The notes under the pieces were generated by a model. The model made no database searches. It was not told the DNA's origin and saw nothing but the letters and a program-made list of their open reading frames with translations. From the NCBI GenBank assembly GCA_016776605.1, contig JADHTB010000006.1, forward strand, positions 62,001 to 126,000: a stretch of DNA of 64,000 nucleotides. Direction: 5' to 3'. Each line of letters starts with the position of its first letter. Position 1 is the stretch's first letter. The stretch is from Alphaproteobacteria bacterium. GTDB taxonomy: Bacteria; Pseudomonadota; Alphaproteobacteria; GCA-2731375. Positions 45,267 through 62,145 of this stretch are shown one piece after another. The translations under genes were made by a program, and so were the position numbers.

Positions 45267-46697
45267 CTAATTCAGCCGCACATATTCGAAATCGATGGGC
45301 TGGTTGTTGATGCCACGGGCGGGCGGGGCGATCCAGGCGGCGTATTTGCCCGGCTCGGTGACCGGCTGCATCAGGCTGATGACATAGGCACGGTCGGCAT
45401 CGCTGGGCAGCCAGTCGCCTTGCTTTTCGGCCCATTCGGCTTCGGTAATAACCTGGCCTTCGGGACTGATCCGCGCGCCGGCGGTGCTTGCGAGGTTGAA
45501 GCTGCCGATTTGACGGTTGAAGGCGCGATGGGGCAATTTCAGCTCGAAATCGATACCCTGGCGCTTGAGAATCTGGTTCCAGCGGCGGACGCCACGGTCG
45601 CAATCGATGACATAGTCATCGCGCAGGCGTTCATTGATGACCGTCAGGGCGTTATCCTGGTTGGTGACGAATTTTCCGCCCTCCAGCTCCAAGATGGGAT
45701 ACAGCGCTTCGGCCAATTTATGATCGTCGCCGATCTTGGTTTCCTCGAAACGGCCCTTCAGCCCCATGGAATAAAAGTTCGCCGCGTTGGTGGAGCGTTC
45801 CGAGCCGAACAAATCCAGCGAAACGGAGAAATGAAAGTTCAGGTATTTCTGCAGGGTTGGCAGATCGATGCCGCCCATTTTGCGCACGTTGTCTTCGCCA
45901 TGTTCCTTCATCAACTCGCAGGCCCGTTGGATCACCCGGCCGACGCCGGTCTCGCCCACGAACATATGATGCGCTTCCTCGGTCAGCATGAAGCGGCAGG
46001 TGCGCGATAGCGGGTCAAAGCCACTTTCGGCCAGGGATGCCAATTGGTACTTGCCATCCCGGTCCGTGAAGTAGGTGAACATGTAAAATGACAGCCAGTC
46101 GGGCGTTGCCTCGTTAAAGGCGCCCAGGATGCGCGGCTTGTCCGGATCACCCGAATGCCGTTGCAGCATCTCGTCGGCCTCTTCCCGGCCGTCGCGGCCA
46201 AAATAGCCATGCAGCAGATAAACCATGGCCCATAAATGCCGGCCTTCCTCGACGTTGACCTGAAACAGATTGCGCAGGTCATAGAGGGAAGGGGCGGTAA
46301 GGCCCAGTTGCCGCTGCTGTTCCACCGACGCCGGCTCGGTATCGCCCTGGGTGACGATCAGGCGGCGCAGCATGCCGCGGTATTCGCCGGGCACGTCCTG
46401 CCAGGCGGCCTCGCCCTTGTGCTCGCCGAAATTAACCTTTCGATCCGCTTCCGGCTCGGCCAGAAAGATACCCCAACGGTATTCCGGCATCTTCACATGG
46501 CCGAAATTGGCCCAACCCTTGGAATCCACGCTGATTGCGGTGCGTAGATAAACGTCATGGGTCTGAAATTCCGTCGGACCCATCTCCTGCCACCATTTCT
46601 GGTAGTTCGGCTGCCAGGCCTCCAGGGCCCGTTGCAGACGGCGGTCTTCCGACAGATCGACGTTGTTGGGGATGCGTTCCTGATAATCAATGGCCAT
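45267..46697 (-). CDS. boxB: Benzoyl-CoA 2,3-epoxidase, oxygenase subunit BoxB
   Basis: BoxB is the di-iron oxygenase that epoxidises benzoyl-CoA in the aerobic hybrid pathway. The 476-residue length is the family norm. The carboxylate/His ligands are visible in VEEGRHLWAMVYLLHGYFG and LTEEAHHMFVGETG; the start (AIDYQERIPNNVDLS) and the C-terminal SLMQPVTEPGKYAAWIAPP are characteristic. It starts 3 bp after the boxC stop, with GGAGGG placed inside the end of boxC, so the two are cotranslated. It needs a reductase (BoxA) that is not in this window. Confidence 0.95.
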   Translation of the reverse strand: MAIDYQERIPNNVDLSEDRRLQRALEAWQPNYQKWWQEMGPTEFQTHDVYLRTAISVDSKGWANFGHVKMPEYRWGIFLAEPEADRKVNFGEHKGEAAWQDVPGEYRGMLRRLIVTQGDTEPASVEQQRQLGLTAPSLYDLRNLFQVNVEEGRHLWAMVYLLHGYFGRDGREEADEMLQRHSGDPDKPRILGAFNEATPDWLSFYMFTYFTDRDGKYQLASLAESGFDPLSRTCRFMLTEEAHHMFVGETGVGRVIQRACELMKEHGEDNVRKMGGIDLPTLQKYLNFHFSVSLDLFGSERSTNAANFYSMGLKGRFEETKIGDDHKLAEALYPILELEGGKFVTNQDNALTVINERLRDDYVIDCDRGVRRWNQILKRQGIDFELKLPHRAFNRQIGSFNLASTAGARISPEGQVITEAEWAEKQGDWLPSDADRAYVISLMQPVTEPGKYAAWIAPPARGINNQPIDFEYVRLN

Positions 46698-46700
46698 GGG

Positions 46701-48350
46701 TCAGACCCTCCTTTTATCGAATTCACTACGCTGGCCGCTGCCGTACATCGGCAGTGCGCCGGTTTCGCCAACCGCATTGGGACGCTGGAATATCCAGTTC
46801 TGCCAGGCGGAGAGGCGCGAGAAGATTTTGCTTTCCATGGTTTCCGGTCCACCGAAACGCAGGTTGGCTTCCATGCCGGTCAAAGCATCGGGAGAGAAGG
46901 CGGCGCGCTCTTCGATGGCGATACGCACCTCGTCCACCCAATCGATGTCGTCGGGGGCAAAGGTGACCAGACCGGCGTCTTCCGCCGTCAGCGCACCCAT
47001 AGCCTCGCCCTGACGCTGTTCCAGGGCCGCGACCGTCTCCGCATCATCCAGGAAACGGGATTGCAGGCGGGTCAGGCCGTTGACCATGTCATAAGGGCCG
47101 AAGTTCATGGCGGTCAGGGCCAGCATCGCCGGCGGTTGGTTGTCGCCTTCGAATTGGCCGTCCAGCATGTAGCTGCGGTCGGCCGCCAGGGCCAGTTCCA
47201 GTAAGGTACCGGTGAAACATGATCCAGGTTCAATAAATGCGAAGATGCTGCGCGAAGTGACATCAACACGCTTCAGGGTACGTTTCAGATACAAAATCAC
47301 CTCGCGCACCAGCCAATGGTTCTGGTTGGCGGCCATCGCGGCGTCATGGGCGGCAAGCAGATCGCTGTCGCCGCTGGTGTGAAACAGCCAGGTGCCGATC
47401 TCGTTCTCATTCGTACGCAGGTGCAGGATCGCGTCGTCCAACTCGCGCGCCAGGCGCAGGGGCCAGTATGCCGCACCCAGTGCCTGGATGGCGTCGGTGT
47501 CGGCGGGGGGGGCTTCGGTCGGTCCCTGTACAGTCAGGCTGGCGGTGCGGCTATGCCGGTCGATTTCCACCGACAGGGTGGAATAGCGGATGCTGTCGCC
47601 ATCGATGGTGCGTTGCAGCGGCGTCAGGGCAATGCCCTGGGACCCAGCCGGGCGGTCCGATTGGGCCACGGCCCGGGCCGCGCGGGCGGCCACGGCATCG
47701 TCATATTTGGAGCGCGGCGCGATCTCGTCAATCAGGCGCCAGTCCACGGCGCGCTGGCCGCGGATGCCTTCCTCCAGGGTGCAGAAGAAATCGGCCCGGT
47801 CGCGCCGCACCTTGCGCTTGTCGGACAGGCGGGTCAGGCCGCCGGTGCCGGGCAACACCGCCAACAGGGGCACTTCCGGCAGGGAAACCGTGGTGGCGCC
47901 GTCGTCGATCATGACGATCTGGTCGCAGGCCAGGGCCAGCTCATAGCCGCCGCCCGCGCAGGGGCCGTTGACGGCGGCGATATAAGTCTGCTGGGAATGG
48001 GCGGAGGCATCCTCGATGCTATTTCGGGTCTCGTTGGTGAATTTGCAGAAATTCACTTTGTGATCGTGGGACGAGGTCGCCAGCATGCGGATGTTGGCGC
48101 CGGCACAAAAGATCCGCTCCTTGGCCGAGGTCATGACAACGGCGGCCACTTCCGGGTGTTCAAAGCGCAGGCGCTGTACCGCATCATAGAGTTCGATGTC
48201 GACGCCCAGGTCGTAGGAATTCAATTTTAATTCATAGCCGTCCCGCAGACCGCCGCCTTCGTCCACGGCCATGGCCAAGGTCGCCACGCGGCCGTCAATG
48301 GACAATTGCCAATGCCGGTAAGATCCCGGCTCCGTGCGGAATTCAATCAT
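46701..48350 (-). CDS. boxC: 2,3-epoxybenzoyl-CoA dihydrolase (benzoyl-CoA-dihydrodiol lyase) BoxC
   Basis: BoxC opens the ring of 2,3-epoxybenzoyl-CoA hydrolytically, giving 3,4-dehydroadipyl-CoA semialdehyde and formate. From the ATG at 48350 (GGGGAG upstream) the protein has 549 residues, as expected. It is a tandem crotonase-fold protein; the N-terminal half shows ICAGANIRML-type FCAGANIRML and NGPCAGGGYELALACDQIVM. The long second half with FAFIEPGSCFTGTLLELALA is BoxC-specific. It leads the boxC-boxB unit, preceded by a putative BoxR site. Confidence 0.95.
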   Translation of the reverse strand: MIEFRTEPGSYRHWQLSIDGRVATLAMAVDEGGGLRDGYELKLNSYDLGVDIELYDAVQRLRFEHPEVAAVVMTSAKERIFCAGANIRMLATSSHDHKVNFCKFTNETRNSIEDASAHSQQTYIAAVNGPCAGGGYELALACDQIVMIDDGATTVSLPEVPLLAVLPGTGGLTRLSDKRKVRRDRADFFCTLEEGIRGQRAVDWRLIDEIAPRSKYDDAVAARAARAVAQSDRPAGSQGIALTPLQRTIDGDSIRYSTLSVEIDRHSRTASLTVQGPTEAPPADTDAIQALGAAYWPLRLARELDDAILHLRTNENEIGTWLFHTSGDSDLLAAHDAAMAANQNHWLVREVILYLKRTLKRVDVTSRSIFAFIEPGSCFTGTLLELALAADRSYMLDGQFEGDNQPPAMLALTAMNFGPYDMVNGLTRLQSRFLDDAETVAALEQRQGEAMGALTAEDAGLVTFAPDDIDWVDEVRIAIEERAAFSPDALTGMEANLRFGGPETMESKIFSRLSAWQNWIFQRPNAVGETGALPMYGSGQRSEFDKRRV

Positions 48351-48378
48351 GCGGTCTGCTCCCCATTTCTTAATAGGC

Positions 48379-48397
48379 ATTATAATGCATTAAATGT
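48379..48397 (-). promoter_or_regulatory. boxR operator: Candidate BoxR operator upstream of boxC
   Basis: On the minus strand this reads ACATTTAATGCATTATAAT. It shares ACAT-n3-ATGCATTATA-WT with the site at 59968-59986 next to boxR. It contains a TGCA core, the element reported for BzdR/BoxR-type regulators in Azoarcus. It lies 28 bp upstream of the boxC start and overlaps a TTGACA-like box at 48394-48399. Confidence 0.6.
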
Positions 48398-48409: not shown

Positions 48410-49351
48410 TTATTTCGCAGGTTTTGCCGTCTGTGTTATTGCCTTGCCGCGTACACCCTCGCGATAAATAATATAAATGCCGGTGGCGATCAGGATGCTG
48501 GCGCCGCCGACGGTCCAGCGGTCGGGCAGGTCGCCAAAGGCCAGATAGCCGAACAAGGTATTCCAAAGCAGAGCCGTATAAGACAGCGGCGCCAGCACCG
48601 CCACGGGGGCGAATTCAAACGACCTGATCAGGGCGTAATGGCCGGCCGCGCCCAACAACCCTAGAGAGGCCAGCATCAGCCAATGCTCTAGGGTCGCCGG
48701 ATTTTGCCAGAAAAATGGCACCACCAGGGTCATGGCCGCGGCGCCGACCAGGCCGGAGAAAAATAAGGTCGTAATAGGGTCGTCCGTGCTGGACAGCATG
48801 CGCGTGGTGATTTGGTAGAGGGCATAGCCAAGTGCCATTAACAACAACAACCAGACGGCCCAATGCATCACGCCGAGGCCCGGCCGGACAATGATCAGGG
48901 CGCCAACGAAGCCTACGGCAACAGCCGCCCAGCGCCGCCGCCCAACCACTTCCCCCAACAATGGCACGCTTAGGGCGGTAACCAGCAGAGGCGAGATGAA
49001 ACTGATTGCCACAGCATCGGCCAGGGGCATGTACTGAATGGCCGTGAAGAAGGTAAGCGTACAAAATACCAGCAATAAAGATCGGATCCATTGCACACCA
49101 GGGCGGCTGGTCCGTAACAGGCTGCGTCCGCGCCGGGGTAAAAAGATCACGGCCATGAAGGCGAAATGGAAAAAATAACGGGCCCAGGTGATTTGCATTA
49201 CCGGCAGGGTCTGGCTCAAATACTTGGCCTGCAGGTCCATCAGCGATAATAAAAACATGGCCCCCAAGGCCAGCATGATCCCGGCCAGTTGGTTCGGCCC
49301 CAAAACCACGGTTCCTGCCGCCGCATTCTCGCCGGCGCCTGGCGTTATCAC
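48410..49351 (-). CDS. DMT-superfamily (EamA) transporter
   Basis: The 313-residue protein has about ten membrane helices in two EamA halves. It begins at a GTG placed immediately after the TAG of the giant coiled-coil gene (TAGGTG), which suggests translational coupling to that gene. The substrate is unknown. The 59 bp between its stop and boxC hold the candidate BoxR site, so it probably is not part of the box unit. Confidence 0.82.
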   Translation of the reverse strand: MITPGAGENAAAGTVVLGPNQLAGIMLALGAMFLLSLMDLQAKYLSQTLPVMQITWARYFFHFAFMAVIFLPRRGRSLLRTSRPGVQWIRSLLLVFCTLTFFTAIQYMPLADAVAISFISPLLVTALSVPLLGEVVGRRRWAAVAVGFVGALIIVRPGLGVMHWAVWLLLLMALGYALYQITTRMLSSTDDPITTLFFSGLVGAAAMTLVVPFFWQNPATLEHWLMLASLGLLGAAGHYALIRSFEFAPVAVLAPLSYTALLWNTLFGYLAFGDLPDRWTVGGASILIATGIYIIYREGVRGKAITQTAKPAK

Positions 49352-52300
49352 CTAATTTAAACGTCCCAGGGCCTTGGACATCAGCATGTACAATTTGCCC
49401 ACATCCGACGATAACAGGACCGCCGCCAGGATATCTTCGGGATCGTTTTCCTCGGCCTGCGCCAACGCTTCCTGAAACTGGAAGAGATAGCGGTCCACGT
49501 GTTCGCGGAAGCCGTCGTCGTCCTCGTAATTACTCTGGATGGCGGCCAGCGAGATACGGTCGCGGCTGTGGACAATGCGGCGGGCGAAAATGCCCCGGTC
49601 ACCGTCCAGATAGCGCTCCCAGGCGTCCTCGGGCACATTTTTTTCCAGGGCCCGGTCCAGGTCAATGGCCAGGGAGTTCATGCGCTCTGTCACGAAGGCC
49701 ATATTGCGCATGAAGGTTTTGCGCCGGTTTGCGCCGCTGCTCTGTTCGACCTTAGCCACATCGACGGCGGCCTTTTCGCTGACCTGACGCAATTCTTCGG
49801 CCTGGCGGCGATAGGTGTCGCCAACCGAATCCGCGGCCTGGCCGGTCCGCTCGGTCAGTTGTTCCAATTCGCCCGCGTTGCGGGCCAACTGTTCGCCCAG
49901 GCGCAACAGCCGCTTTTCGCTGCCCTTGGCCTGATCCGATAATTCGTCCACCGCCAGGCGCAAATCCTTGCTCAATGCGGCAACCTGCTGGGACAGCCGA
50001 TTGGATTCATCACGCAGTTCAGTGCCCTGGCCGGCCATTTCCAGACCGGCCGCCTTCAGCCTTTCGGCCCCGCGCTCGCCGGCGGCCGCGACATTCTGAA
50101 TTTCCTGGCGAAAGGCAATGCCGGCGCCCAGGATTCGCGTTGCTTCACGGTCGGATGTTTCATTCAAGGCGGTCGAGGCGTTATCGAAGGAAATATGGGC
50201 GCCGCGCAAACGCGCGGCTGCTTCGTCCGCCGCTTCCGCCACGCGGGAGGTGCCACGGCCCAGGACATCAATCGCCTCGGTCAAATCGGTTTTTGACTGG
50301 GTCGCCACCGCGCTCATTTCGCCGGCCCGCCGCAGCAGCTCCTCGCTAACATCACCCGACTCCCGGTTCAGGGATTGGCTGTGCTCCGTAAAACGGGTCA
50401 GGGCGGCTTCGATCCGCGCCGCCGCCGCCGTTGCCGCTTCGTTTAATTGCTCGCCTTGCCCGCGCAGGGACTGAGCCAGACCGGCCATGTTCTCAACCGC
50501 CTTGGTGGATGTGCCTTCCGCCTGCGCGCTACCCTGGCTCAACAAATCCATAATCTGGTTCAGATAGGCCCCGCCCTTGGTGGTGGCGGCATCCAGGGTC
50601 TGCAGTTCCGTTTGCAAGGCGCTGCCGGCCTTGGCCAAATCATCCAGGGCGGACGATGATGCCTGGCTCAGGGCGTTGGTGCTTTTCTCTAATATGGTCT
50701 CTATCTGGCCGGCCCGTTCAGAGATGGCGGTGGTGATTTGCTGCAAGGCGCCGGCCCGGCTTTGCAGATCCTCGCTCAGGCGCATGGCGCGCTTCTCTGC
50801 CTTGTCGGCGGCGTCTTCCAGCGCGGTGGCGTGCTGCTGCATGGCGGCACTCAGGGTCGTGGCCTCGGCCTGAACCCGGTCCGTCGCGGCTGTCAGATGT
50901 TGCGCGTTCTGGCGCAGGGTTTCACCGGTGGTGTCCACCGCCGCGTTGGCTTGCTGGGCCGCCGCCGCGACACCATCGGCCTCTTCCCGCAGGCTGGCGG
51001 TGGTGTTGTGAATTTGGGCCAGTGCGCGTTCGCCTTCAACGGCCAGGGTGTCGGCGGCCTCTACATAGGCCGCTTCCGTGGCACGCATTTCCGATGTTGC
51101 CGCAGTGCCGGCCTCGGCCAGACCGGCGATGCGTTCTTCCAGTTGGCGCCCGGCCCCTTCGGCCCGCGTGGCCGCCACTGTTACGCCTTCGATGCCCTTG
51201 TCCAGCGCGGATTGAACCGCCCCGATACGTTGCCCGGCGGCATCGGCTGCCTCGGCAACACGGCCGGCGGTGGCCTGGGCGATCTGCTCTAAATTCGTCT
51301 CCGCCCCTTCGCTCAATTCTCTAAAGCGCTGCTCCGTCATGCTGGTCAAATCGCCAATGCGCACGTCAGTGCTCTGGGTGAAGCCGCCGATCCGGCTTTC
51401 GACCGCGTTGGTCACATTGTCCACGCGGTCCTCAATCATGTTGGCTACATTATCCACGCGGGCCTCGACCGCACCGGCCATGGCATCGATCCGGTCCTCG
51501 GCGCCGCCGGTCAGGTCTTCAATTTGCCCGGATGCGGTCGTGGCGGCGAATTGTATCCGGCTCATGGCTTGTTCAACGCCGTCGCCGGCCTGACCCAGGG
51601 CTGCCGCCGATTGCCGCGACGTCGCGGCGATGGCCTCGGCCTGGGCGTTCAAATGCTGGCTGGCCTGGTCGAGCCGCTGGTCGGCCTGCTGGGCGGCCTG
51701 CTGCACGGTTTCCGCCGTTGCCGCCAATTGGCCGCCCGCCTTGGCGATGCGTTCCTCGGTCTTCCCGGCGGTGGCGTTCAGTATTTCAAGATGCTGTTGC
51801 ACCCGCGCCTCGATGCCGTGGGATATGCTTTCCACCTCGCTCGAAAGCTGACGCAGGCCGTTGCCGTCCTGGCGCATGGCCTCGCCCGCGCGCTTGGCCT
51901 CGGATCCGATCTGGGTCGAAACTTCCTGCAGCCACTCACTCTCCTGATGCAGGTTCTGGTTCATCTCGCCACCGCGGCTTATCATGTCGTCAACCGCAAG
52001 GCTCAAATCCGTGATTTGGGCCCGCAGGCCCGCTTCCACCGTGTTGGCCTGGCCAATGGTGCGTTGGGCCAGACCTTCCAGGTTTGCCACGATGTCCGTG
52101 ATCCGCGCCTCGAACTCATCGCGGATGGCTTCCGCCGAATGAGAGGCTTCCTGGCCGAATTTTTCAGTATTGCCCGCCACGGACTTGCCGATTTCGTCGA
52201 TCCGTTGTTGAAAAGCATTGCTCAACGCCAAGGCGTTCAGGGCGGCCTGGCGCGAGGCATCCTCGGCATAGCCGGTAACGACCGCGGCGCCATCCTTAAA

Positions 52301-55186
52301 GGATTGCGCGATTTCCTCGGTGCGGCGGTTGACGAAATTGGCAATTTTGTCTGTTTCGCTGGCGATTTGCACCGTACGCAACGTGAAGGCCTGGGCCACC
52401 GCGTCGGCCCTGGATTCCCCCCGGCGGGCGCTGTCTTCGACGGCACTGTTGAAGGCTTCAGCCCGACCGCGCAGTTCGGCTTCAACCTTGGCGACCGTGG
52501 TGCGCAGGCCATCAACCGTACCCTCGGCCATGCTCAGGAGTTGTCCGCGCCGGGCGTCGAGATCCGCCAACAAGGCATCGATCCGTCCAGCGGCATGATC
52601 GGTCATGCGGTCGGCGGTCTGCCGCGCCTCATATTCTTCTTCCCGCAGCCGCTCGGAAATGACATCGGCATGCCGCGAGACATCCGAGGTGATGCGCCTG
52701 GCAACATCGGCCAGGGCGGTGGCGCGCTCGTCCACATTTGATTGCAGGTCGCTCCAGTCCTGATCGATCCCGTCGATGCTGCGGTTCATGTCGCCGCTGA
52801 CCCGTTCGATGCGTGACAGCAGGGTGGCGCTCATTTCCTCCAACCGGCGCACGGCCTGTTCCGTGGCGACGGTGGTGGCGGTACGCAGATCGTCCGTCTG
52901 GACCCGAATGCGTTCGCCAGTGTTGGTGACACGGCTTTCCAGGCGGTCAATGGTCTGATCGATTTCCTGGCCCAATTTGCCAACCGTTTGGCGCACCCCG
53001 TCGGCCATCTGATCGGCGTGGCCACCAACGGTCTTTTGCGTCCCGGCTGAAGCCGTCTCGATGGCCTTGAGCTGCTGGGCATAGTGCAGGCGCATTTGTT
53101 CGGCGCTGGTCACGGCCTGGTCGGTCATCTCGCCGGTACGCACCAGTAACTGGTCCAGGGAACGGCTGTAATCCTGGCCCAACTGATCCACGACCCCGCG
53201 GACCCCATCGGCCATTTCACCGGACCGCCCGGCCACGGTCTTTTGCGTTTGGCTCGACGCCAGCTCAATTCCGGCCAGCTGCTCGCCATAATGGCGGCGC
53301 ATATGTTCAGCCTGGGCCATGGCGTTCGAGGCCATTTCGCCGGTCCGGGATTCCAGACGGTCGACGGATAGGTTGAAATGATCGGCAAGGTCGTTGAGAT
53401 TTTGTTCGATGCCGTCGGCCAGGCGATCGGCACGGCCGGCCAGGGCGCCGTGGGCCTGATCCGTCGATTGCTCGATGACGGCCAGTTTATCCAGATATTG
53501 CTGGCGCAATTGCTCCACCCGTTCCATGGCAGTGTCGCGCAGATCGTCGGAGCGGTTGTTGAGACCGTCGATGGCATGCTCGAAGGCCTCGGTCATGAGG
53601 TTTAAATTCTGCCTCATATGGCCGGCCATGCGTTCGTTTTGCACGGCGATGTCAGTCTGGACCTGGGTTGACAGCTGTTCAATCTCGGCCAGTTTCAGGC
53701 CGTAATGCTGGTGCATTTGATCCGCCCGGGCGGCGGCGGCTTCGGTCATCTCGGTGCCGCGCTGGGTCAACTCGTCAATGTTTTGATCAAAGCGGTCCGA
53801 CATTTGCGCCAGGTTCCGGGTCAGTTCCTGCGCCATTTCCGTGCCGCGCGCGGTCAGCGCGGTTTGGCCTTCGTCAGCGTTCCGCGCGATGGCGTTCAAC
53901 CGGTCTTCGAAATGCTGGCTGATACCGTCGGCCCCGGCCATGGCCGCGTCCTTCATGCCCCCGGCGCGTTCCTCCAGGTGGTCGATGGCGGTGTCGAAAT
54001 CAGTCTCCATATGGGCCAGATTTTTGTGCAAATCCGCCGTCATTTGGGCGCTGCGGGCGGCGATGGTGGTTTGCGTCTGTTGGCCCGTGCGTTCGATCTC
54101 ATTCAGGCGGGTGCCATAATGCTGGCGGATCTGGTCCGCCCGCGCCATGGCTTCTTCGCTCCAGGTTCCCGCCCGGCTGTCCATATGATCGACGGTCTGG
54201 GAAAATTTCTGTTCCATCTCATTCGCGGTGTGGGCGACGCCATCGGCTATCATATCGGCCCGTTGAGAGACGGTCTGGTGCGTCTGCGCGGTGTTTTGCT
54301 CTATTTCCGCCAGACGGGTTTCATAATGCTGCCGCAGACGGTCGGCCTGGCTCATGGTATTTTCGGTCAGGGCCTCGGCCCGCGCTTCGGCCTCGTCCAT
54401 GGCCTCGGCCAAAGCTTCCGACTGCGCGTTGAGGACACTGGCCACCTGTTCGGCCCGATGTTGTGATTGCGTGACCGAGGCCTCGAAGTCGCCAGCCTGC
54501 CCCAACAACAAATCGTTGATCTGACTACCCTGTTCCGTCAGACGTTCGGCGGCGCCTTCCAGGGACCGGGCCCGTCCGCCCAGCTCTTCGACCAGGGCGG
54601 CGGTGCGGGCGTTGGACGAGGTGGAGCTGCGGTTGATATCCTCGACCCGTTGGCGCAACAGGCTTTCGACCTGACGCACCTGATCGGTCGCCTGCTCCGA
54701 GGCTTGGGTCAGTTCCTCCGCCTGGCGGCGCAGCGCGGCCGAGACCATTTCGATCCGGGCATTCGCCTGATTGTCGGGATAGGTCAGACGCCGCAGTTCC
54801 GCCTGCAAGGCAGCGGCATGATCGGTCATCTCGCTGCCTCGGCGAAGATAAAACAACGCCAGCCATAGGACGCCCAATGGGGCGAAAACCGCGCTTAGCA
54901 CCGATGCCAGTTCGTGGGGCAGCAGAAAGGCCAGGGCATCCCACCCGACATAGCCGGTGACATAGCTGACACAGACGACCAGCCAGACCGCGGTGATCAC
55001 CAGGCCCAGCATCAGGCCGCGGTGGAAATTGACCTCCCCCGGCGCCCACCATCTTGGCGGCCGCCCGCCCGGGCCGCCACCGGTGGCCCCGCCATAACCA
55101 CCGCCACGCCCGCCATAGCCGGGCTCGCGCTCGACGGCTTCCGCCGGGATTGGCAGTTGGCTGACGGGTGTCTCTATCTGCGGCAT
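49352..55186 (-). CDS. Giant membrane-anchored coiled-coil protein, TipN/GPR-like polar organiser candidate
   Basis: This protein has 1944 residues. Residues 22-50 are Gly-rich; two membrane helices follow at about 57-80 and 86-114, and the rest is almost uninterrupted, Ala/Glu/Gln-rich alpha helix. Seven consecutive repeats of exactly 69 residues (275-757) contain the signature Q-H-Y-x2-x-L-x-x-I-E. A later stretch shows 11-residue periodicity (RVDNVANMIE DRVDNVTNAV). The C-terminal 110 residues form a distinct, conserved-looking domain (AWERYLDGDRGIFARRIVHS). Two N-terminal helices plus a giant coiled coil match TipN of Caulobacter and GPR of Agrobacterium, which mark or build the growth pole. 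AGGG precedes the ATG at 55186. The upstream exported-protein gene is 25 bp away. Confidence 0.75.
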   Translation of the reverse strand: MPQIETPVSQLPIPAEAVEREPGYGGRGGGYGGATGGGPGGRPPRWWAPGEVNFHRGLMLGLVITAVWLVVCVSYVTGYVGWDALAFLLPHELASVLSAVFAPLGVLWLALFYLRRGSEMTDHAAALQAELRRLTYPDNQANARIEMVSAALRRQAEELTQASEQATDQVRQVESLLRQRVEDINRSSTSSNARTAALVEELGGRARSLEGAAERLTEQGSQINDLLLGQAGDFEASVTQSQHRAEQVASVLNAQSEALAEAMDEAEARAEALTENTMSQADRLRQHYETRLAEIEQNTAQTHQTVSQRADMIADGVAHTANEMEQKFSQTVDHMDSRAGTWSEEAMARADQIRQHYGTRLNEIERTGQQTQTTIAARSAQMTADLHKNLAHMETDFDTAIDHLEERAGGMKDAAMAGADGISQHFEDRLNAIARNADEGQTALTARGTEMAQELTRNLAQMSDRFDQNIDELTQRGTEMTEAAAARADQMHQHYGLKLAEIEQLSTQVQTDIAVQNERMAGHMRQNLNLMTEAFEHAIDGLNNRSDDLRDTAMERVEQLRQQYLDKLAVIEQSTDQAHGALAGRADRLADGIEQNLNDLADHFNLSVDRLESRTGEMASNAMAQAEHMRRHYGEQLAGIELASSQTQKTVAGRSGEMADGVRGVVDQLGQDYSRSLDQLLVRTGEMTDQAVTSAEQMRLHYAQQLKAIETASAGTQKTVGGHADQMADGVRQTVGKLGQEIDQTIDRLESRVTNTGERIRVQTDDLRTATTVATEQAVRRLEEMSATLLSRIERVSGDMNRSIDGIDQDWSDLQSNVDERATALADVARRITSDVSRHADVISERLREEEYEARQTADRMTDHAAGRIDALLADLDARRGQLLSMAEGTVDGLRTTVAKVEAELRGRAEAFNSAVEDSARRGESRADAVAQAFTLRTVQIASETDKIANFVNRRTEEIAQSFKDGAAVVTGYAEDASRQAALNALALSNAFQQRIDEIGKSVAGNTEKFGQEASHSAEAIRDEFEARITDIVANLEGLAQRTIGQANTVEAGLRAQITDLSLAVDDMISRGGEMNQNLHQESEWLQEVSTQIGSEAKRAGEAMRQDGNGLRQLSSEVESISHGIEARVQQHLEILNATAGKTEERIAKAGGQLAATAETVQQAAQQADQRLDQASQHLNAQAEAIAATSRQSAAALGQAGDGVEQAMSRIQFAATTASGQIEDLTGGAEDRIDAMAGAVEARVDNVANMIEDRVDNVTNAVESRIGGFTQSTDVRIGDLTSMTEQRFRELSEGAETNLEQIAQATAGRVAEAADAAGQRIGAVQSALDKGIEGVTVAATRAEGAGRQLEERIAGLAEAGTAATSEMRATEAAYVEAADTLAVEGERALAQIHNTTASLREEADGVAAAAQQANAAVDTTGETLRQNAQHLTAATDRVQAEATTLSAAMQQHATALEDAADKAEKRAMRLSEDLQSRAGALQQITTAISERAGQIETILEKSTNALSQASSSALDDLAKAGSALQTELQTLDAATTKGGAYLNQIMDLLSQGSAQAEGTSTKAVENMAGLAQSLRGQGEQLNEAATAAAARIEAALTRFTEHSQSLNRESGDVSEELLRRAGEMSAVATQSKTDLTEAIDVLGRGTSRVAEAADEAAARLRGAHISFDNASTALNETSDREATRILGAGIAFRQEIQNVAAAGERGAERLKAAGLEMAGQGTELRDESNRLSQQVAALSKDLRLAVDELSDQAKGSEKRLLRLGEQLARNAGELEQLTERTGQAADSVGDTYRRQAEELRQVSEKAAVDVAKVEQSSGANRRKTFMRNMAFVTERMNSLAIDLDRALEKNVPEDAWERYLDGDRGIFARRIVHSRDRISLAAIQSNYEDDDGFREHVDRYLFQFQEALAQAEENDPEDILAAVLLSSDVGKLYMLMSKALGRLN
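52916..54364 (-). repeat. Seven in-phase 207-bp coding repeats
   Basis: The repeats encode residues 275-343, 344-412, 413-481, 482-550, 551-619, 620-688 and 689-757 of the giant protein. All are exactly 69 residues, with no insertion or deletion, though sequence identity between units is only moderate. This implies selection on length rather than recent duplication. Confidence 0.85.
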
Positions 55187-55211: not shown

Positions 55212-55868
55212 TTACAGCGCATTCTGCAAGTGATCTGGATAGGTTGGTACGTCCAATTGGGCATACGGCGGGCGTACATGTTGAACAAGGAAAAAATTCG
55301 GCTTTATGCCGGTATGGGTAATGGCGACGGCGAAGCGGCCCCGTTCGCCCGGGATGATCTGCCCCTGGCTGAAGCGGATCACGTCGCGCGGTTCCGTCAA
55401 ATCATCAACCTGGGCAAAGCTGTCCGAGCGAAAGGGCCGGTTGGCTGCCTCTGATTGGGCAAACGACAGGCCGTCGTAATAATCGCTGCCGCGCCCGGCC
55501 TCGAACTCCAATTCCAGGGCATAATAGTCCCAGATCAGGGCCGTGCGGTTGATCACCACTTTTTGCAGGGCGAAACCGACCGCATGCCGGGTTGCGACCC
55601 GGCTGCCGAAGTCCGCCGCTTCCACATTGATCGCCAGCACCACTTCGCCCTCGCCGAAAACTTCTTCGACCAGCACGATGGGATCCTCCAGGCTGCCCGT
55701 GCCCGAGGCCGCCAATAGGCGAAAGTTGCTCGATGCCTCGGAAAATGTAATCCCCGGCAACGAAATGCGGCCGGCCGCCGCGGCGCCCCCGGCGCCGGGC
55801 CCCGCAGCCAGCATCAGAACCGCCAGAGCCAGATAAAAAGGCAGGATTATGGCTAATCGTACAAACAT
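55212..55868 (-). CDS. Hypothetical exported protein
   Basis: The ATG at 55868 gives 218 residues with a clear signal peptide (MFVRLAIILPFYLALAVLML, cleavage near AAAAG at residue 31). The mature part is rich in beta-type and acidic residues with no recognisable motif; two blocks, GSDYYDGLSFAQSEAANRPF and AITHTGIKPNFFLVQHV, stand out. It is the first gene of a unit with the giant coiled-coil protein and the EamA transporter. A periplasmic partner of the membrane-anchored coiled coil is an inference from this pairing. The longer frame starting at 55895 would overlap an operator-like site. Confidence 0.6.
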   Translation of the reverse strand: MFVRLAIILPFYLALAVLMLAAGPGAGGAAAAGRISLPGITFSEASSNFRLLAASGTGSLEDPIVLVEEVFGEGEVVLAINVEAADFGSRVATRHAVGFALQKVVINRTALIWDYYALELEFEAGRGSDYYDGLSFAQSEAANRPFRSDSFAQVDDLTEPRDVIRFSQGQIIPGERGRFAVAITHTGIKPNFFLVQHVRPPYAQLDVPTYPDHLQNAL

Positions 55869-55885
55869 GCCCCATTGTCCCTGAC

Positions 55886-55904
55886 TGTGGGCCATAGGTC
55901 AAAG
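55886..55904 (+). promoter_or_regulatory. Third copy of the 19-bp operator-like palindrome
   Basis: TGTGGGCCATAGGTCAAAG differs from the pair at 33712-33756 only at its end. It lies 18 bp upstream of the exported-protein ATG (minus strand). The shared site hints that this unit and the TAXI-TRAP operon answer to one regulator. Confidence 0.45.
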
Positions 55905-55941: not shown

Positions 55942-56622
55942 CTAACTGACCCAGCCGCCTGCGAAGGGGATAATCTGCCCGACGAAAAAATCACTGTCTT
56001 CGCCAGCCAGGAACAGGGCAAGGGCGGTGTCCTCGTCGGCGCGGGCCAGGCGACCCAGAGGCACCTCCTGTTTCAGCCTGGAACGGAATTTAGGATTGTC
56101 CTGCAAGCTTTCAGGATAATACACGTCACTTTCCACCCAGTTCTGGGCGATCAGGTTAACTTGAATATTGTTGCGGGCCAATTCCACGCCAACGGCACGC
56201 ACATAGCCGGCTTGGGCCCCGCGCGCGGCGGTATAGGCGGCCAGCCGGGCTATGCCCCGCAAAGGTGTTGCGCTGCCATAGACGACAATCTTGCCCTGCG
56301 CCCGTTCGATCATTTGCGGCGTCACGGCGCGCACCAGTCGGTGCAGGGGATGGACCATGATGTCGAACATGCTGGCCCAGATATCGTCGTCAATATCGGC
56401 CACCGCCACGCCGTGATGGTTCGGCGCCGCCAGATTGGCGATCAGGATATCCAGCGGTCCCGACTGGGCCACGATGCGGCCGGCAGCATCCGGTTCAGTT
56501 AAGTCGCTGCGGTCCGCGATAACCTCGGCCCCGGCCTCACGAAACGTTTTGACCGTCTGGGGACCCATGTAGTCGTCGGCTTGGGTTACCAATACCCGTT
56601 TTCCCGCCAGCTTGCCCGTCAT
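55942..56622 (-). CDS. Halohydrin dehalogenase-like SDR-fold protein
   Basis: The ATG at 56622 (GAGG upstream) gives 226 residues. Although SDR-folded, it lacks the nucleotide-binding TGxxxGxG. Instead it has both signatures of halohydrin dehalogenases: T-x4-[FY]-x-G as TQADDYMG (residues 13-20), which builds the halide site, and the catalytic S-x12-Y-x3-R as Ser117, Tyr130, Arg134. The neighbourhood GSATP, YTAAR, YYPESLQ, NPKF and VPLGRL parallels the HheC type over the C-terminal half. The predicted reaction is dehalogenation of vicinal haloalcohols to epoxides, and nucleophilic epoxide opening in reverse. Common annotation would call it an SDR oxidoreductase. Activity is untested. Confidence 0.82.
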   Translation of the reverse strand: MTGKLAGKRVLVTQADDYMGPQTVKTFREAGAEVIADRSDLTEPDAAGRIVAQSGPLDILIANLAAPNHHGVAVADIDDDIWASMFDIMVHPLHRLVRAVTPQMIERAQGKIVVYGSATPLRGIARLAAYTAARGAQAGYVRAVGVELARNNIQVNLIAQNWVESDVYYPESLQDNPKFRSRLKQEVPLGRLARADEDTALALFLAGEDSDFFVGQIIPFAGGWVS

Positions 56623-56734: not shown

Positions 56735-56773
56735 GGGTATTGGGGGTATTGGGGGTATTGGGGGTATTGGGGG
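56735..56773 (+). repeat. 9-bp tandem repeat in the leader of the molybdoenzyme gene
   Basis: Four copies of a GGGTATTGG-type 9-mer run in tandem and merge into the GGGGGA that serves as ribosome site of the next gene. Each unit carries a G-run like a weak Shine-Dalgarno and an in-frame TTG. Copy-number change would keep the frame but could alter initiation. Confidence 0.75.
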
Positions 56774-56775
56774 AA

Positions 56776-58995
56776 ATGGTGGTATCGCAAACGATATACG
56801 AGGCGCCGCGCCCGGTGCCGGGGCCAGGGGAACAGGTGGTTACCAGCACCTGTGGCCATAATTGCGGCGGGCGTTGCGTGGTCAATGCCCATGTGCGCGA
56901 TGGCCGGATCACCAGGATCTCCACCGATGCCCGGCGTTGGAACCCCGCGCATCCGCCGCTGCCGGCCTGCGCCCGCGGCGTCGGGCAGATCGAACGCACT
57001 TATCACCCTGACCGTCTGCAATATCCCATGCGCCGCACGGGGCCGCGCGGCTCTGGCCAGTTCGCGCGAATTTCCTGGGACGAGGCCTTGGACGAGGTGG
57101 CGGCGCAATTGCTGCGCGTGCGGGAAAAATGGGGCAATGCGGCCATACTCGACGGCTCCCGCTCGGGCAGTTTGTCCATGTTGCATGGCCGGGGTCCGGC
57201 GAAGCGCTTTTTGCATATGTTTGGCGGCTGCAGCGATTTGTGGTCGAACATGTCGTGCGAGGCTGAAATATTCTCCCTGCGCGCTACCTATGGCCAGGGT
57301 TTCTCCCACAAGGTCGCGGGCCGCGAACCCACGGACTATGTCAATTCGAAATTGATCTGGATGTGGGGCTGGTCGCCGGGGGACGGCACCTTTGGTACCG
57401 GCACCATGCAATATTTGAAACAGGCCAAGGCGCAGGGCACGCGCATCGTCTGTATTGATCCCCGCCGCAGCCGCAGCTCTATTCAGTTGGCCGATGAACA
57501 TATCTTTATCCGCCCCTCCACCGATGCCGCCGCCTTGATCGCCATGGCCTATGTGATGGTCAAGGAAGGGGTGCATGATCAGGTTTATTGCGATCGCTTT
57601 GTGCAGGGTTTCGACGAGGCGACCTTGCCTGAAGGCGCACCGGCGGGGGCCTCCTATCGCAGCTATCTGATGGGCGAGACCGATGGTTTGGCAAAGACTC
57701 CAGAATGGGCGGCCGGGATAACGGGCATTCCAGCCGCGACGATCCAGCGTCTGGCCATTGAATTCGCCACCACCAAGCCGGCCGCGTTGCAGGGCGGTTA
57801 CGGGCCAGGGCGAACGGCCTTTGGCGAACAGTTCCACAGGGCGGCCTTTGCTTTGGCGGCGATGACCGGCAATGTGGGTATCGTTGGCGGCAATTCCGGC
57901 ACCAGCAATGGCGCCACCGGGCAGGGCAATATGCGTGGCTTTTCCGCGGGGCCGAATCCGGTCGATGCAAAAATTTCCGCGCCTCTGCTGGCCGATCTGT
58001 TGGCCCGTGGCAAGAGCGGCGGTTATCCCGCGGATATCAAGCTGATTTATTCCATGGGCGGTGATTTGTTCAACCAATGTCCGAACGCGGCAAAAACCGC
58101 CAAGGCATTGGACAACGTCGAATTCATCGTCGGCCAGGACCATTTCCTCACCCCGACCACGCGCCACGCGGATATCGTGCTGCCGGCCACGACCTTTTGG
58201 GAACGTAACGACGTGCATACGCCCTGGGCCGGGGCGGGCCATTATGCGATCTTCATGAAACAGGCCATCGAACCTATGTACGAGTGCCGCAATGATCTGG
58301 ATATTTTTACCGATCTGGCCGCGCGCGTCGGCATCGAGGGTTATAACGGCAAAGAAGAGATGGACTGGCTGCGCGCGTTCACCGCCGACGCGGTGGACGA
58401 TTTTGATGCCTTTCAGGCGCAGGGTGTGGCCCGGTTTCCCGCACCCGAGGATGCGGTGGCGTTTGCCAAACAGATCCGCGATCCGGAAAGCCATAAATTC
58501 GCCACGCCGTCGGGCAAGATCGAGGTTTATGCCACTCTCATCGCGGATAATCCCAATCCCTATGGTCTGGGCGCTATTGCGCCGATCCCGACCTGGGTGC
58601 CGCAACTGGAGCACGACGGGGATTACCCACTAAGCCTGTGCAGTCCCAAGTCACGGGCGCGGACCCATTCCATTCATGGCAACCAGGACAAGCTGGCCAA
58701 GGTTGATCCCGATGATCTGTGGCTGCATCCAGCGGATGCCGAGGCGCGGGGCATTCACGATGGGCAGATGGTGCGGATCTTCAACGCCCAGGGCGCGACG
58801 GTCTTGCCGGCCAAGGTGACGGAAAACATCGCGCCCGGCGTCGTTTCCATCAAGGAAGGTGCCTGGTTTACCCCCGATGAAGAGGGCACCGACACACAAG
58901 GCTGCGCCAACGCGGTGACCCTGGACCGCTCCGCGCCCAGCGGGGCGACCACCTACAACACGAATTTTGTCCAGGTACGGCCGGTCAATAGTTAG
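56776..58995 (+). CDS. DMSO-reductase-family molybdopterin oxidoreductase, catalytic subunit
   Basis: The ATG at 56776 follows GGGGGAA and gives 739 residues; a TTG start inside the tandem repeat is possible. An N-terminal [4Fe-4S] site is seen as CGHNCGGRCVV (Cys 26, 30, 34) with a later PACARG. Molybdopterin-guanine-dinucleotide contacts include CIDPRRSRSS, GNMRGFSAGPNP and the C-terminal LSLCSPKSRARTHSIHGNQ. The domain order resembles DmsA. No twin-arginine signal and no iron-sulfur or membrane subunit gene is adjacent, so a cytoplasmic orphan subunit is suggested. The substrate is unknown. Confidence 0.87.
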   Translation: MVVSQTIYEAPRPVPGPGEQVVTSTCGHNCGGRCVVNAHVRDGRITRISTDARRWNPAHPPLPACARGVGQIERTYHPDRLQYPMRRTGPRGSGQFARISWDEALDEVAAQLLRVREKWGNAAILDGSRSGSLSMLHGRGPAKRFLHMFGGCSDLWSNMSCEAEIFSLRATYGQGFSHKVAGREPTDYVNSKLIWMWGWSPGDGTFGTGTMQYLKQAKAQGTRIVCIDPRRSRSSIQLADEHIFIRPSTDAAALIAMAYVMVKEGVHDQVYCDRFVQGFDEATLPEGAPAGASYRSYLMGETDGLAKTPEWAAGITGIPAATIQRLAIEFATTKPAALQGGYGPGRTAFGEQFHRAAFALAAMTGNVGIVGGNSGTSNGATGQGNMRGFSAGPNPVDAKISAPLLADLLARGKSGGYPADIKLIYSMGGDLFNQCPNAAKTAKALDNVEFIVGQDHFLTPTTRHADIVLPATTFWERNDVHTPWAGAGHYAIFMKQAIEPMYECRNDLDIFTDLAARVGIEGYNGKEEMDWLRAFTADAVDDFDAFQAQGVARFPAPEDAVAFAKQIRDPESHKFATPSGKIEVYATLIADNPNPYGLGAIAPIPTWVPQLEHDGDYPLSLCSPKSRARTHSIHGNQDKLAKVDPDDLWLHPADAEARGIHDGQMVRIFNAQGATVLPAKVTENIAPGVVSIKEGAWFTPDEEGTDTQGCANAVTLDRSAPSGATTYNTNFVQVRPVNS

Positions 58996-59017: not shown

Positions 59018-59914
59018 TTACGCCTCGGCGCCGGTATCCGGCACCATGGCGGCCAGTTCATCCAGGCAGGCGCCCAGGGTGCGGGCCGTGGTGTCCAGGC
59101 TGGCATCAGCCTTGCGGTACAGGCTCTCGCGGCCCTCCAGGATACGCTGTAGATCTTCCATGGCCTCCCGGTTGCCGGCCATGGGGCGCTGGTCACCCTG
59201 GGCCGCTACCCGGGCCATATGCTCCGCCGGCGAGGCTTGCAGCCAGATGGTGTAGCAAGACGACAACAGGCGTTCGTAGGTGCCCGGTTCGGTGACCAGC
59301 CCGCCGCCCGTTTCCAGCACGGCCCTGGGATAGGCCTCGACCACCTGTTCCAGGCATTGCCGTTCCAACCGGCGGTAGGCGGTCCGGCCCAGCAGATCAA
59401 AAATTTCGTCCAGGCGCATGCCGGCCTTTTCCTCGATCCGCTTGTTCAACTGCACAAAGGGCAGACCCAGGCGCTTGGCCAGGGCGGCCCCCAGGGTGCT
59501 TTTGCCCGCGCCACGCAGGCCGATCAGGGCAATGCGGCTGCCTTGCCCGGCCTCCGGCGCATAGCGCTGGCGCAAATGACGATGCAGATCGGCCAGGTCA
59601 GCGTTGTTCAGGTCGGCTAGTTGCTCCAGTATCAAGGCCAATTCCACCGGCCGGTCCGGGCCGTCCTGAACCAATTCCGAAAGCGGCAGATGCATGGCCG
59701 CCGCGATTTGCCGCAGCAGGATGATCGAGACATTGCCCCGGCCGCTTTCCAACTGTGCCAGATAGCGCTCCGAGACCCCGGATTCAGCGGATAATATCTT
59801 GCGCGTCATGCCGCGCCGGGCCCTGGCCCCACGCACCCGGTCGCCCAACAGGGCCAAATAGCGCCCGTCGTCGTCCGCCCTGTCCGCCTGATCCCGCTCC
59901 ATTCGACGCTGCAT
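59018..59914 (-). CDS. boxR: BoxR-type regulator: XRE helix-turn-helix plus shikimate-kinase-like domain
   Basis: The 298-residue protein has an XRE helix-turn-helix at about residues 25-85 (ILSAESGVSERYLAQLESGR) and a P-loop shikimate-kinase-like domain from about 125 on (ALIGLRGAGKSTLGAALAKR), the architecture of BoxR and BzdR. These repress benzoate genes and bind benzoyl-CoA as inducer through the kinase-like domain. GAGG precedes the ATG at 59914. It diverges from the flavodoxin/bclA unit, and candidate operators lie between them. The position beside benzoate-CoA ligase supports the call. Confidence 0.93.
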   Translation of the reverse strand: MQRRMERDQADRADDDGRYLALLGDRVRGARARRGMTRKILSAESGVSERYLAQLESGRGNVSIILLRQIAAAMHLPLSELVQDGPDRPVELALILEQLADLNNADLADLHRHLRQRYAPEAGQGSRIALIGLRGAGKSTLGAALAKRLGLPFVQLNKRIEEKAGMRLDEIFDLLGRTAYRRLERQCLEQVVEAYPRAVLETGGGLVTEPGTYERLLSSCYTIWLQASPAEHMARVAAQGDQRPMAGNREAMEDLQRILEGRESLYRKADASLDTTARTLGACLDELAAMVPDTGAEA

Positions 59915-60558: not shown

Positions 60559-62145
60559 ATGACGAGCGGCTATAGTACATTCGATCTATCCCAGGATCCG
60601 CCTTTGGTGACCGTGCCACGGGCCTATAACCTGGCGGTGGACTTCATGGACCGGCGGGTTGACGAGGGCTTTGGCGACAAGGTTGCCTTTATCGATGACA
60701 ACGGTAGGCACAGCTATGGCGCGTTGCAGGAAAATGCCAATCGCTTTGGCAATGCCATGCTGAATTTGGGCCTGCAAGCGGAACAGCGCGTCATGCTGCT
60801 GCAACTGGACAGCATTGATTTTCCCATTGCCTTCTTTGGCGCCATTAAGGCGGGATTGGTGGCGGTGCCGGTCAATACCCTGCTGACCACCGACGATTAT
60901 CACTACATGTTGCGGGATTCCCGGGCCAGGGCCCTGGTGGTCAGCGCGGACCTGCTGCCCGTCGTGGCGCCGATCCTGGATCAATTGCCCGATCTGCGGC
61001 ATGTCATCGTGACCGGCACTGGTGATACGCAAGGCCATGCCAGCATGGCCGCGACCCTGGCGGGCGGGGCGGCGGCGTTGGCGGCGGCGGCCACCTCGGC
61101 GGACGACGTGGCGTTCTGGCTCTATTCCTCCGGCTCCACGGGGCGTCCCAAGGGCGCGCCGCATCTGCAAAGCGATATGATCCATACGGCGGTCCTGTAT
61201 GGCCTGGGCGTGTTGGGCATTCGGTCCGATGACGTGGTCTATTCCGCCGCCAAGTTGTTTTTCGCCTATGGGCTGGGCAATGCCCTGACCTTTCCCATGC
61301 TGGTCGGGGCCACCTCTGTTCTGATGGCCGGGCGGCCGACGCCGGGGGATGTCATGGCCCGGATAAAGGATAACGGGGCCAGCATATTTTACGGTGTGCC
61401 CACCCTGTATGCAGGCATCCTGGCGGATGACAGCATTGGCCAGGATGCGTCCTCGCCACGCCTGCGCCACTGTGTTTCCGCCGGTGAAGCCTTGCCCGAA
61501 GATATTGCCAAACGCTGGGCGGATCGTTTCGGCGTGGATATTCTGGACGGCATCGGCTCGACTGAGATGCTGCACATTTTTGTCTCCAACCGGCCGGGCG
61601 ATGTGCGCTATGGCAGCACCGGGCTGCCGGTGCCTGGCTATCGCTGCCGCCTGACGGATGATGCGGGTGCGGCTGTGGCCCCCGGAGAAATTGGCGATCT
61701 GCTGGTCAGCGGACCGTCGTCGTCGCCTTATTACTGGAACAACCGGGAAAAAAGCGTCGCTACTTTCGAAGGCGCCTGGACCCGCACCGGCGATAAATAC
61801 ACCTGTGATAAAGATGGCTATTTCATCTATGCGGGCCGCAGCGATGATATGTTGAAGGTCGGCGGCATCTGGGTCTCGCCGTTCGAGGTGGAATCCGCCC
61901 TGATGGCCCATGACAGCGTCCTGGAAGCAGCGGTGGTCGGACACGGCGACAGCGACGAATTGATCAAGCCAAAGGCCTATGTTGTCCTGAAGGCTGGCGG
62001 CGGCGGGGAAAGCCAGGCCACGGCATTGCAGCAATTCGTCAAGGATCGTCTGGCGCCCTACAAATATCCCCGCTGGGTGGAATTTGTCGACGAATTGCCC
62101 AAGACCGCGACGGGCAAGATCCAACGTTTTAAGCTGCGGGATTGA
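60559..62145 (+). CDS. bclA: Benzoate-CoA ligase
   Basis: The ATG at 60559 follows GGGAGGA. The 528-residue ANL enzyme shows WLYSSGSTGRPKGAPH (phosphate loop), GIGSTEMLHIFVSN, TRTGDKYTCDKDGYFIYAGR, DDMLKVGGIWVSPFEVE and the C-terminal Lys in KTATGKIQRFKLRD. The segment AAKLFFAYGLGNALTFPM is typical of the benzoate/2-aminobenzoate ligase branch. It makes benzoyl-CoA, the substrate of BoxB and the probable inducer of BoxR. The alpha/beta hydrolase gene follows after 13 bp. Confidence 0.93.
   Translation: MTSGYSTFDLSQDPPLVTVPRAYNLAVDFMDRRVDEGFGDKVAFIDDNGRHSYGALQENANRFGNAMLNLGLQAEQRVMLLQLDSIDFPIAFFGAIKAGLVAVPVNTLLTTDDYHYMLRDSRARALVVSADLLPVVAPILDQLPDLRHVIVTGTGDTQGHASMAATLAGGAAALAAAATSADDVAFWLYSSGSTGRPKGAPHLQSDMIHTAVLYGLGVLGIRSDDVVYSAAKLFFAYGLGNALTFPMLVGATSVLMAGRPTPGDVMARIKDNGASIFYGVPTLYAGILADDSIGQDASSPRLRHCVSAGEALPEDIAKRWADRFGVDILDGIGSTEMLHIFVSNRPGDVRYGSTGLPVPGYRCRLTDDAGAAVAPGEIGDLLVSGPSSSPYYWNNREKSVATFEGAWTRTGDKYTCDKDGYFIYAGRSDDMLKVGGIWVSPFEVESALMAHDSVLEAAVVGHGDSDELIKPKAYVVLKAGGGGESQATALQQFVKDRLAPYKYPRWVEFVDELPKTATGKIQRFKLRD

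Follow-up and report, generated by a model that had tools for sequence, protein, structure and literature searches.

Halohydrin dehalogenases (HHDHs), which serve as biocatalysts, are told apart from short-chain dehydrogenases/reductases (SDRs) by two sequence motifs, T-x4-[FY]-x-G and S-x12-Y-x3-R, whose SDR counterparts are T-G/A-x3-G/A-x-G and S-x10-14-Y-x3-K (PMC4989007 and PMC11976700, both cited here from excerpts). According to the excerpt of PMC4989007, activity was confirmed for 19 selected enzymes found via these motifs, and the described members include HheC from Agrobacterium, HheA3 from Parvibaculum, and HheA5 from Tistrella. The same excerpt states that only two known HHDH genes share an operon with an epoxide hydrolase, and therefore leaves room for other physiological functions. 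Here, we analyzed a 64,000-nucleotide (nt) stretch of contig JADHTB010000006.1 from an alphaproteobacterial assembly (GCA_016776605.1), referred to as the window, in which positions 55942–56622 correspond to exactly one gene. An initial annotation had proposed an HHDH for this range without giving a strand; the open reading frame (ORF) lies on the minus strand and encodes 226 amino acids (aa), from the ATG at 56622–56620 to the stop codon at 55944–55942. We conclude with high confidence that it encodes a cofactor-free HHDH of the B/D branch.

Both HHDH motifs are present in the protein. Motif 1 reads T13-QADD-Y18-M-G20, with Gln14 and Tyr18 occupying two Gly positions of the SDR glycine-rich motif, while motif 2 comprises S117, Y130, and R134, with Arg134 standing where SDRs have their catalytic Lys. 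The classical features of NAD(P)-dependent SDRs (T-G-x3-[AG]-x-G and the S-Y-K triad) are both absent from the 226-aa protein sequence, the NAD(P) site being assessed here from the lost glycine-rich motif. The residues of both HHDH motifs are those that the initial annotation had named, and its claim that the SDR cofactor motif has been lost holds as well. The longest mechanically called ORF begins upstream of the ATG, at GTG 56691; congener proteins, cut back to a start that corresponds to this ATG, can be aligned with it from residue 1 onwards.

The motifs set this protein apart from the other SDR-like sequences of its own genome, where 82 matches were found at E ≤ 0.001, itself included, the next-best having an E value of 3.2e-20 and 29% identity. 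From the other 81 SDR-like stretches, 47 were submitted to the motif script and 38 were scored, among them two probably in wrong frames (E 6.8 and 9.5) and one incomplete. None of these 38 carried both motifs and none carried motif 2; a motif-1-like string was found in one, and S-x10-14-Y-x3-K in 29. A scan of species genomes yielded at least 537 tblastn-confirmed relatives, and both motifs are kept in all 80 that were retained. Of 19 relatives drawn from a genome search and a plasmid collection, some of them also among the 80, 18 carry both motifs; in the remaining one, encoded on Novosphingobium plasmid pSA2, the motif-1 Thr is replaced by Ser.

Sequence ranking, the predicted structure, and phylogeny agree with the motifs in supporting the HHDH identity. 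In phmmer comparisons with known HHDHs, HheB scored 243 bits and HheC 64 bits, with several ordinary SDRs scoring above HheC. HheB, HheD2, and HheD8 are the proper yardsticks rather than HheC, and the earlier statement that the C-terminal half parallels HheC is true only in a weak sense. HHDHs form homotetramers; the structure, predicted here as a monomer, has an SDR fold, and this predicted fold is closest to HheB, HheD2, and HheD8. In the tree, the protein groups with verified HHDHs (100/99 split) and apart from YxxxK SDRs, a position among such reductases being what the initial annotation had named as counting against its proposal; a quick tree of 51 rows gave the same outline. An approximately unbiased (AU) test of joining the protein to the SDRs gave p 0.026. 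Among the B/D references included (HheB, HheD2, and HheD8 only, with HheG-type references left out), it falls on the HheB side (82/91), and joining it to the HheD2/HheD8 group gave an AU p of 0.013; both AU tests were made after the first tree had been inspected. Some points weigh against our assignment. The rejection of the SDR grouping is moderate, is based on six SDRs, and came once the first tree had been seen; the motifs predict HHDH activity without proving it; and the position of the gene does not show the substrate of the enzyme.

If the protein follows the family mechanism, as described in the excerpt of PMC4989007, Ser117 would hold the hydroxyl group of a vicinal haloalcohol, and Tyr130, its pKa lowered by Arg134, would abstract the proton. 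The alkoxide would then close to the epoxide, with the halide departing into the pocket that motif 1 lines. The reverse reaction would open epoxides with halide, azide, cyanide, or nitrite. On this family mechanism, dehalogenase and epoxide-opening activities may be expected for the protein described here.

Within its own genus, the gene is found in eight of 11 genomes, own included, and the other copies are 80–84% identical. A sample of the class gave matches at E ≤ 1e-42 in 10 of 385 genomes, including the own genome and two congeners. Judged by record label, most of the 80 retained relatives belong to Gammaproteobacteria or Alphaproteobacteria, and Acidimicrobiia-type and Myxococcota records account for a few. 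The initial annotation had called such enzymes rare, a view at odds with at least 537 confirmed relatives and with both motifs in every one of the 80 retained. Its further remark that an alphaproteobacterial member is unusual is not supported either, given the 10 class genomes and the hosts of HheC, HheA3, and HheA5: Agrobacterium, Parvibaculum, and Tistrella, all of them Alphaproteobacteria. No relative was found in viral contigs with a single query, and the plasmid collection gave one at E ≤ 1e-30, on Novosphingobium resinovorum pSA2; this copy (L041, 9001–9678) adjoins an annotated epoxide hydrolase gene. Another relative with 60% identity (L128, 2416–3090) comes from a contig whose record names a Klebsiella pneumoniae metagenome-assembled genome, which is perhaps mislabeled or a mixed bin.

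In the window, the HHDH gene heads a co-directional run that continues through an uncharacterized gene, a coiled-coil-like protein, an EamA-family transporter, and boxC to boxB, with gaps of 46, 25, 0, 29, and 3 nt between mechanical ORF ends. Upstream, beyond a divergent oxidoreductase gene, lie genes for a BoxR-type regulator, a flavodoxin, a benzoate-CoA (coenzyme A) ligase, and an alpha/beta hydrolase. The regulator is named BoxR-type here, the model itself being called "anaerobic benzoate catabolism transcriptional regulator". The benzoyl-CoA epoxide pathway noted in the initial annotation is real, as BoxB, BoxC, the regulator, and the ligase all pass curated NCBIfam cut-offs.

Features of the HHDH gene and its surroundings in the window
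Feature	Coordinates	Strand	Basis
Halohydrin dehalogenase (predicted), B/D branch, 226 aa, ATG to stop	55942..56622	-	Motifs, ranking, predicted fold, tree
Motif 1, T13-x4-Y18-x-G20; nucleophile-pocket motif replacing the SDR glycine-rich motif	56563..56586	-	Sequence; motif definition from excerpts of PMC4989007, PMC11976700
Motif 2, S117-x12-Y130-x3-R134; putative catalytic triad	56221..56274	-	Sequence; motif definition from excerpts of PMC4989007, PMC11976700
Gene next after HHDH, ~227 aa, 46 nt past the HHDH stop; found in the genus	55212..55895	-	ORF; Pfam (1e-5) and NCBIfam (1e-10) searches gave no match
Repetitive protein, 1944 aa, coiled-coil-looking by eye	49352..55186	-	ORF, inspection
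EamA-family transporter	48410..49351	-	Domain match
boxC, 2,3-epoxybenzoyl-CoA dihydrolase	46701..48380	-	TIGR03222, 948.9 bits (cut-off 712.3)
boxB, benzoyl-CoA 2,3-epoxidase subunit	45267..46697	-	TIGR03225, 862 bits (cut-off 499.1)
Dimethyl sulfoxide (DMSO)-reductase-family molybdopterin oxidoreductase, divergent	56740..58995	+	Below curated subfamily cut-off; true start probably within the listed ORF
BoxR-type regulator, helix-turn-helix and shikimate-kinase-like domain	59018..59914	-	NF006015, 390.3 bits (cut-off 204)
Benzoate-CoA ligase	60559..62145	+	TIGR02262, 771.8 bits (cut-off 375.25)

The 1944-aa repetitive protein differs in aligned length and identity among congeners. Between the divergent HHDH and oxidoreductase genes, at the point where the mechanically called oxidoreductase ORF starts, lies a 9-bp tandem repeat, GGGTATTGG, in 5.7 copies (56735–56785); its exact two-unit string was found in none of 176 other loci compared, congeners included.

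As to what the enzyme acts on, natural halohydrins are a tentative possibility, for example bromohydrins formed by marine haloperoxidases, with the resulting epoxide handed on to an epoxide hydrolase whose gene lies elsewhere in the genome. Records of some relatives name marine sources or genera, and a gene for an EHN-family epoxide hydrolase is found in 10 of the genus's 11 genomes, among them the one studied here. However, this gene lies on a different contig from the HHDH gene, occurs also in three congeners that lack HHDH, and gave no match in one carrier (G009), while a title-level literature search found no statement of such a substrate. Since the hydrolase gene is present both with and without HHDH, its co-occurrence in the genus was rejected as a link between the two.

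We consider it unlikely that the HHDH is part of a general electrophile defence that, in relatives, also involves glutathione S-transferases (GSTs), glyoxalase-like proteins, and alkylation repair. In relatives, the HHDH gene often has neighbors of these kinds: a local phmmer search placed a GST within 1.5 kb in 26 of the 80 relatives, and for representatives adjoining HHDH, Pfam confirmed the assignments to GST, glyoxalase, and O6-methylguanine methyltransferase. GSTs were also enriched in the raw count (26/282 near vs 12/503 far genes, Fisher p 4e-5), but with one gene per family, using a GST model matched by most members, the proportions were 6/106 near and 4/110 far (p 0.53). The raw excess comes from a small number of operons conserved in particular lineages. 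The near set covered 106 of 107 families (a 1981-aa gene was left out) and the far set 110 of 208 (140 were sampled and 127 listed, from which 17 lying at stretch ends were removed by hand). The genes of both sets were called by a simple ORF script and therefore include some false ORFs; a count of families on the same strand within 150 nt (35), made post hoc, was not used. The scan of window genes flanking 55942–56622 turned up no GST, and we treat the electrophile theme as a lead only.

Certain gene arrangements were seen in several relatives. In six (L084, L085, L088, L095, L097, and L101), the end of a GST-like gene coincides with the HHDH start or lies no more than ~60 nt from it, and a gene of the O6-methylguanine methyltransferase type lies downstream, with all three on the same strand; one representative of each was examined with Pfam. 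Six others (L060, L065, L069, L070, L087, and L092) have a gene for an HpaB-type flavin-dependent monooxygenase near HHDH on the same strand, with Pfam run on the L092 copy.

The position of the HHDH gene before a run ending in boxC and boxB suggests that it is expressed with benzoate catabolism in this genus and has an accessory, dispensable function. All seven other carriers of the genus have HHDH in the same slot, between the uncharacterized downstream gene and the oxidoreductase; boxC follows downstream in five and boxB in two, the remainder ending at stretch or contig ends, and in three carriers ~1 kb of other sequence separates EamA from boxC. Two congeners, G002 and G007, carry the block without an HHDH gene, and no convincing remnant was found there (best tblastn E 0.027, 28% identity). 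Because their oxidoreductases are nearer to the own copy (85.7 and 86.7% identity) than those of the seven other carriers (76.5–80.1%), these single-gene identities suggest that HHDH was lost in the G002/G007 lineage. A third congener lacking HHDH (G008) is 84% complete and gave no boxC match either. Four other genera of the family were compared: each of the four genomes has boxC and none gave an HHDH match at E ≤ 1e-30, two of them being 81 and 83% complete. Among seven HHDH carriers from other families, five gave no boxC match at E ≤ 1e-30, and the remaining two carry it on another contig, one of these assemblies being fragmentary. A box role judged by presence and absence was rejected, as HHDH and box fail to track together outside the genus; from this pattern, the benzoate link is a stable feature of one genus, and HHDH is not needed to keep the block.

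It is quite improbable that the enzyme serves the box pathway itself, whether by clearing stray epoxides or halohydrins around benzoyl-CoA 2,3-epoxide or by handling haloaromatics activated by the pathway. The initial annotation had suggested that it might act on pathway side products, and the evidence on this is mixed. The short gaps of the run that it heads, its constant slot, and the control of toxic epoxides, proposed as a concern for such epoxidases (PMC5489048, in excerpt), are consistent with such a service, whereas the block of G002 and G007, the distribution outside the genus, and the ~1 kb of other sequence before boxC in some carriers all argue against it, and a small buried active site would make a CoA-thioester substrate unlikely. 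Very doubtful, too, is the proposal that HHDH was recruited in this genus as head gene of the box operon, acting on epoxides or halohydrins from aerobic benzoyl-CoA or halobenzoyl-CoA breakdown. If true, it would give a B/D-type enzyme a native catabolic role beyond haloalcohol degradation, for which no published example was found in a literature search at title level. One catabolic slot, filled in eight genomes of the genus and empty in two, offers a natural comparison for the cellular role of HHDHs.

That the protein is an ordinary short-chain reductase using NAD(P), its motifs a coincidence, is scarcely credible: the fold is that of SDRs, Pfam matches above cut-off are to SDR families only, and, among the matches listed, none of 25 NCBIfam models (of 200) reaches its own cut-off, but the glycine-rich motif is lost, Arg replaces the catalytic Lys, both motifs are fixed in the 80 retained relatives, and ranking and tree position are those of an HHDH.

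As a cofactor-free HHDH of the B/D branch, the protein can be placed among the solved enzymes. With HheC (Agrobacterium radiobacter AD1, PDB: 1pwx) it shares the predicted mechanism class, both motifs, and the SDR fold; in the quick tree, HheC belongs to the opposite one of the main HHDH branches, and its C-terminal extension with Trp249 (PMC4989007, in excerpt) has no counterpart here. HheD2 (PDB: 7b73) and HheD8 (PDB: 8xxb) form a separate group with one of the relatives (L026; 100/99). HheB, the halohydrin hydrogen-halide-lyase B of Corynebacterium sp. N-1074 (PDB: 4zd6), comes from a different organism and gene context; about half of the residues differ, and uncharacterized relatives intervene in the tree. 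What is new here is one more B/D sequence, with ~50% identity to the solved members of an enzyme family that was already known.
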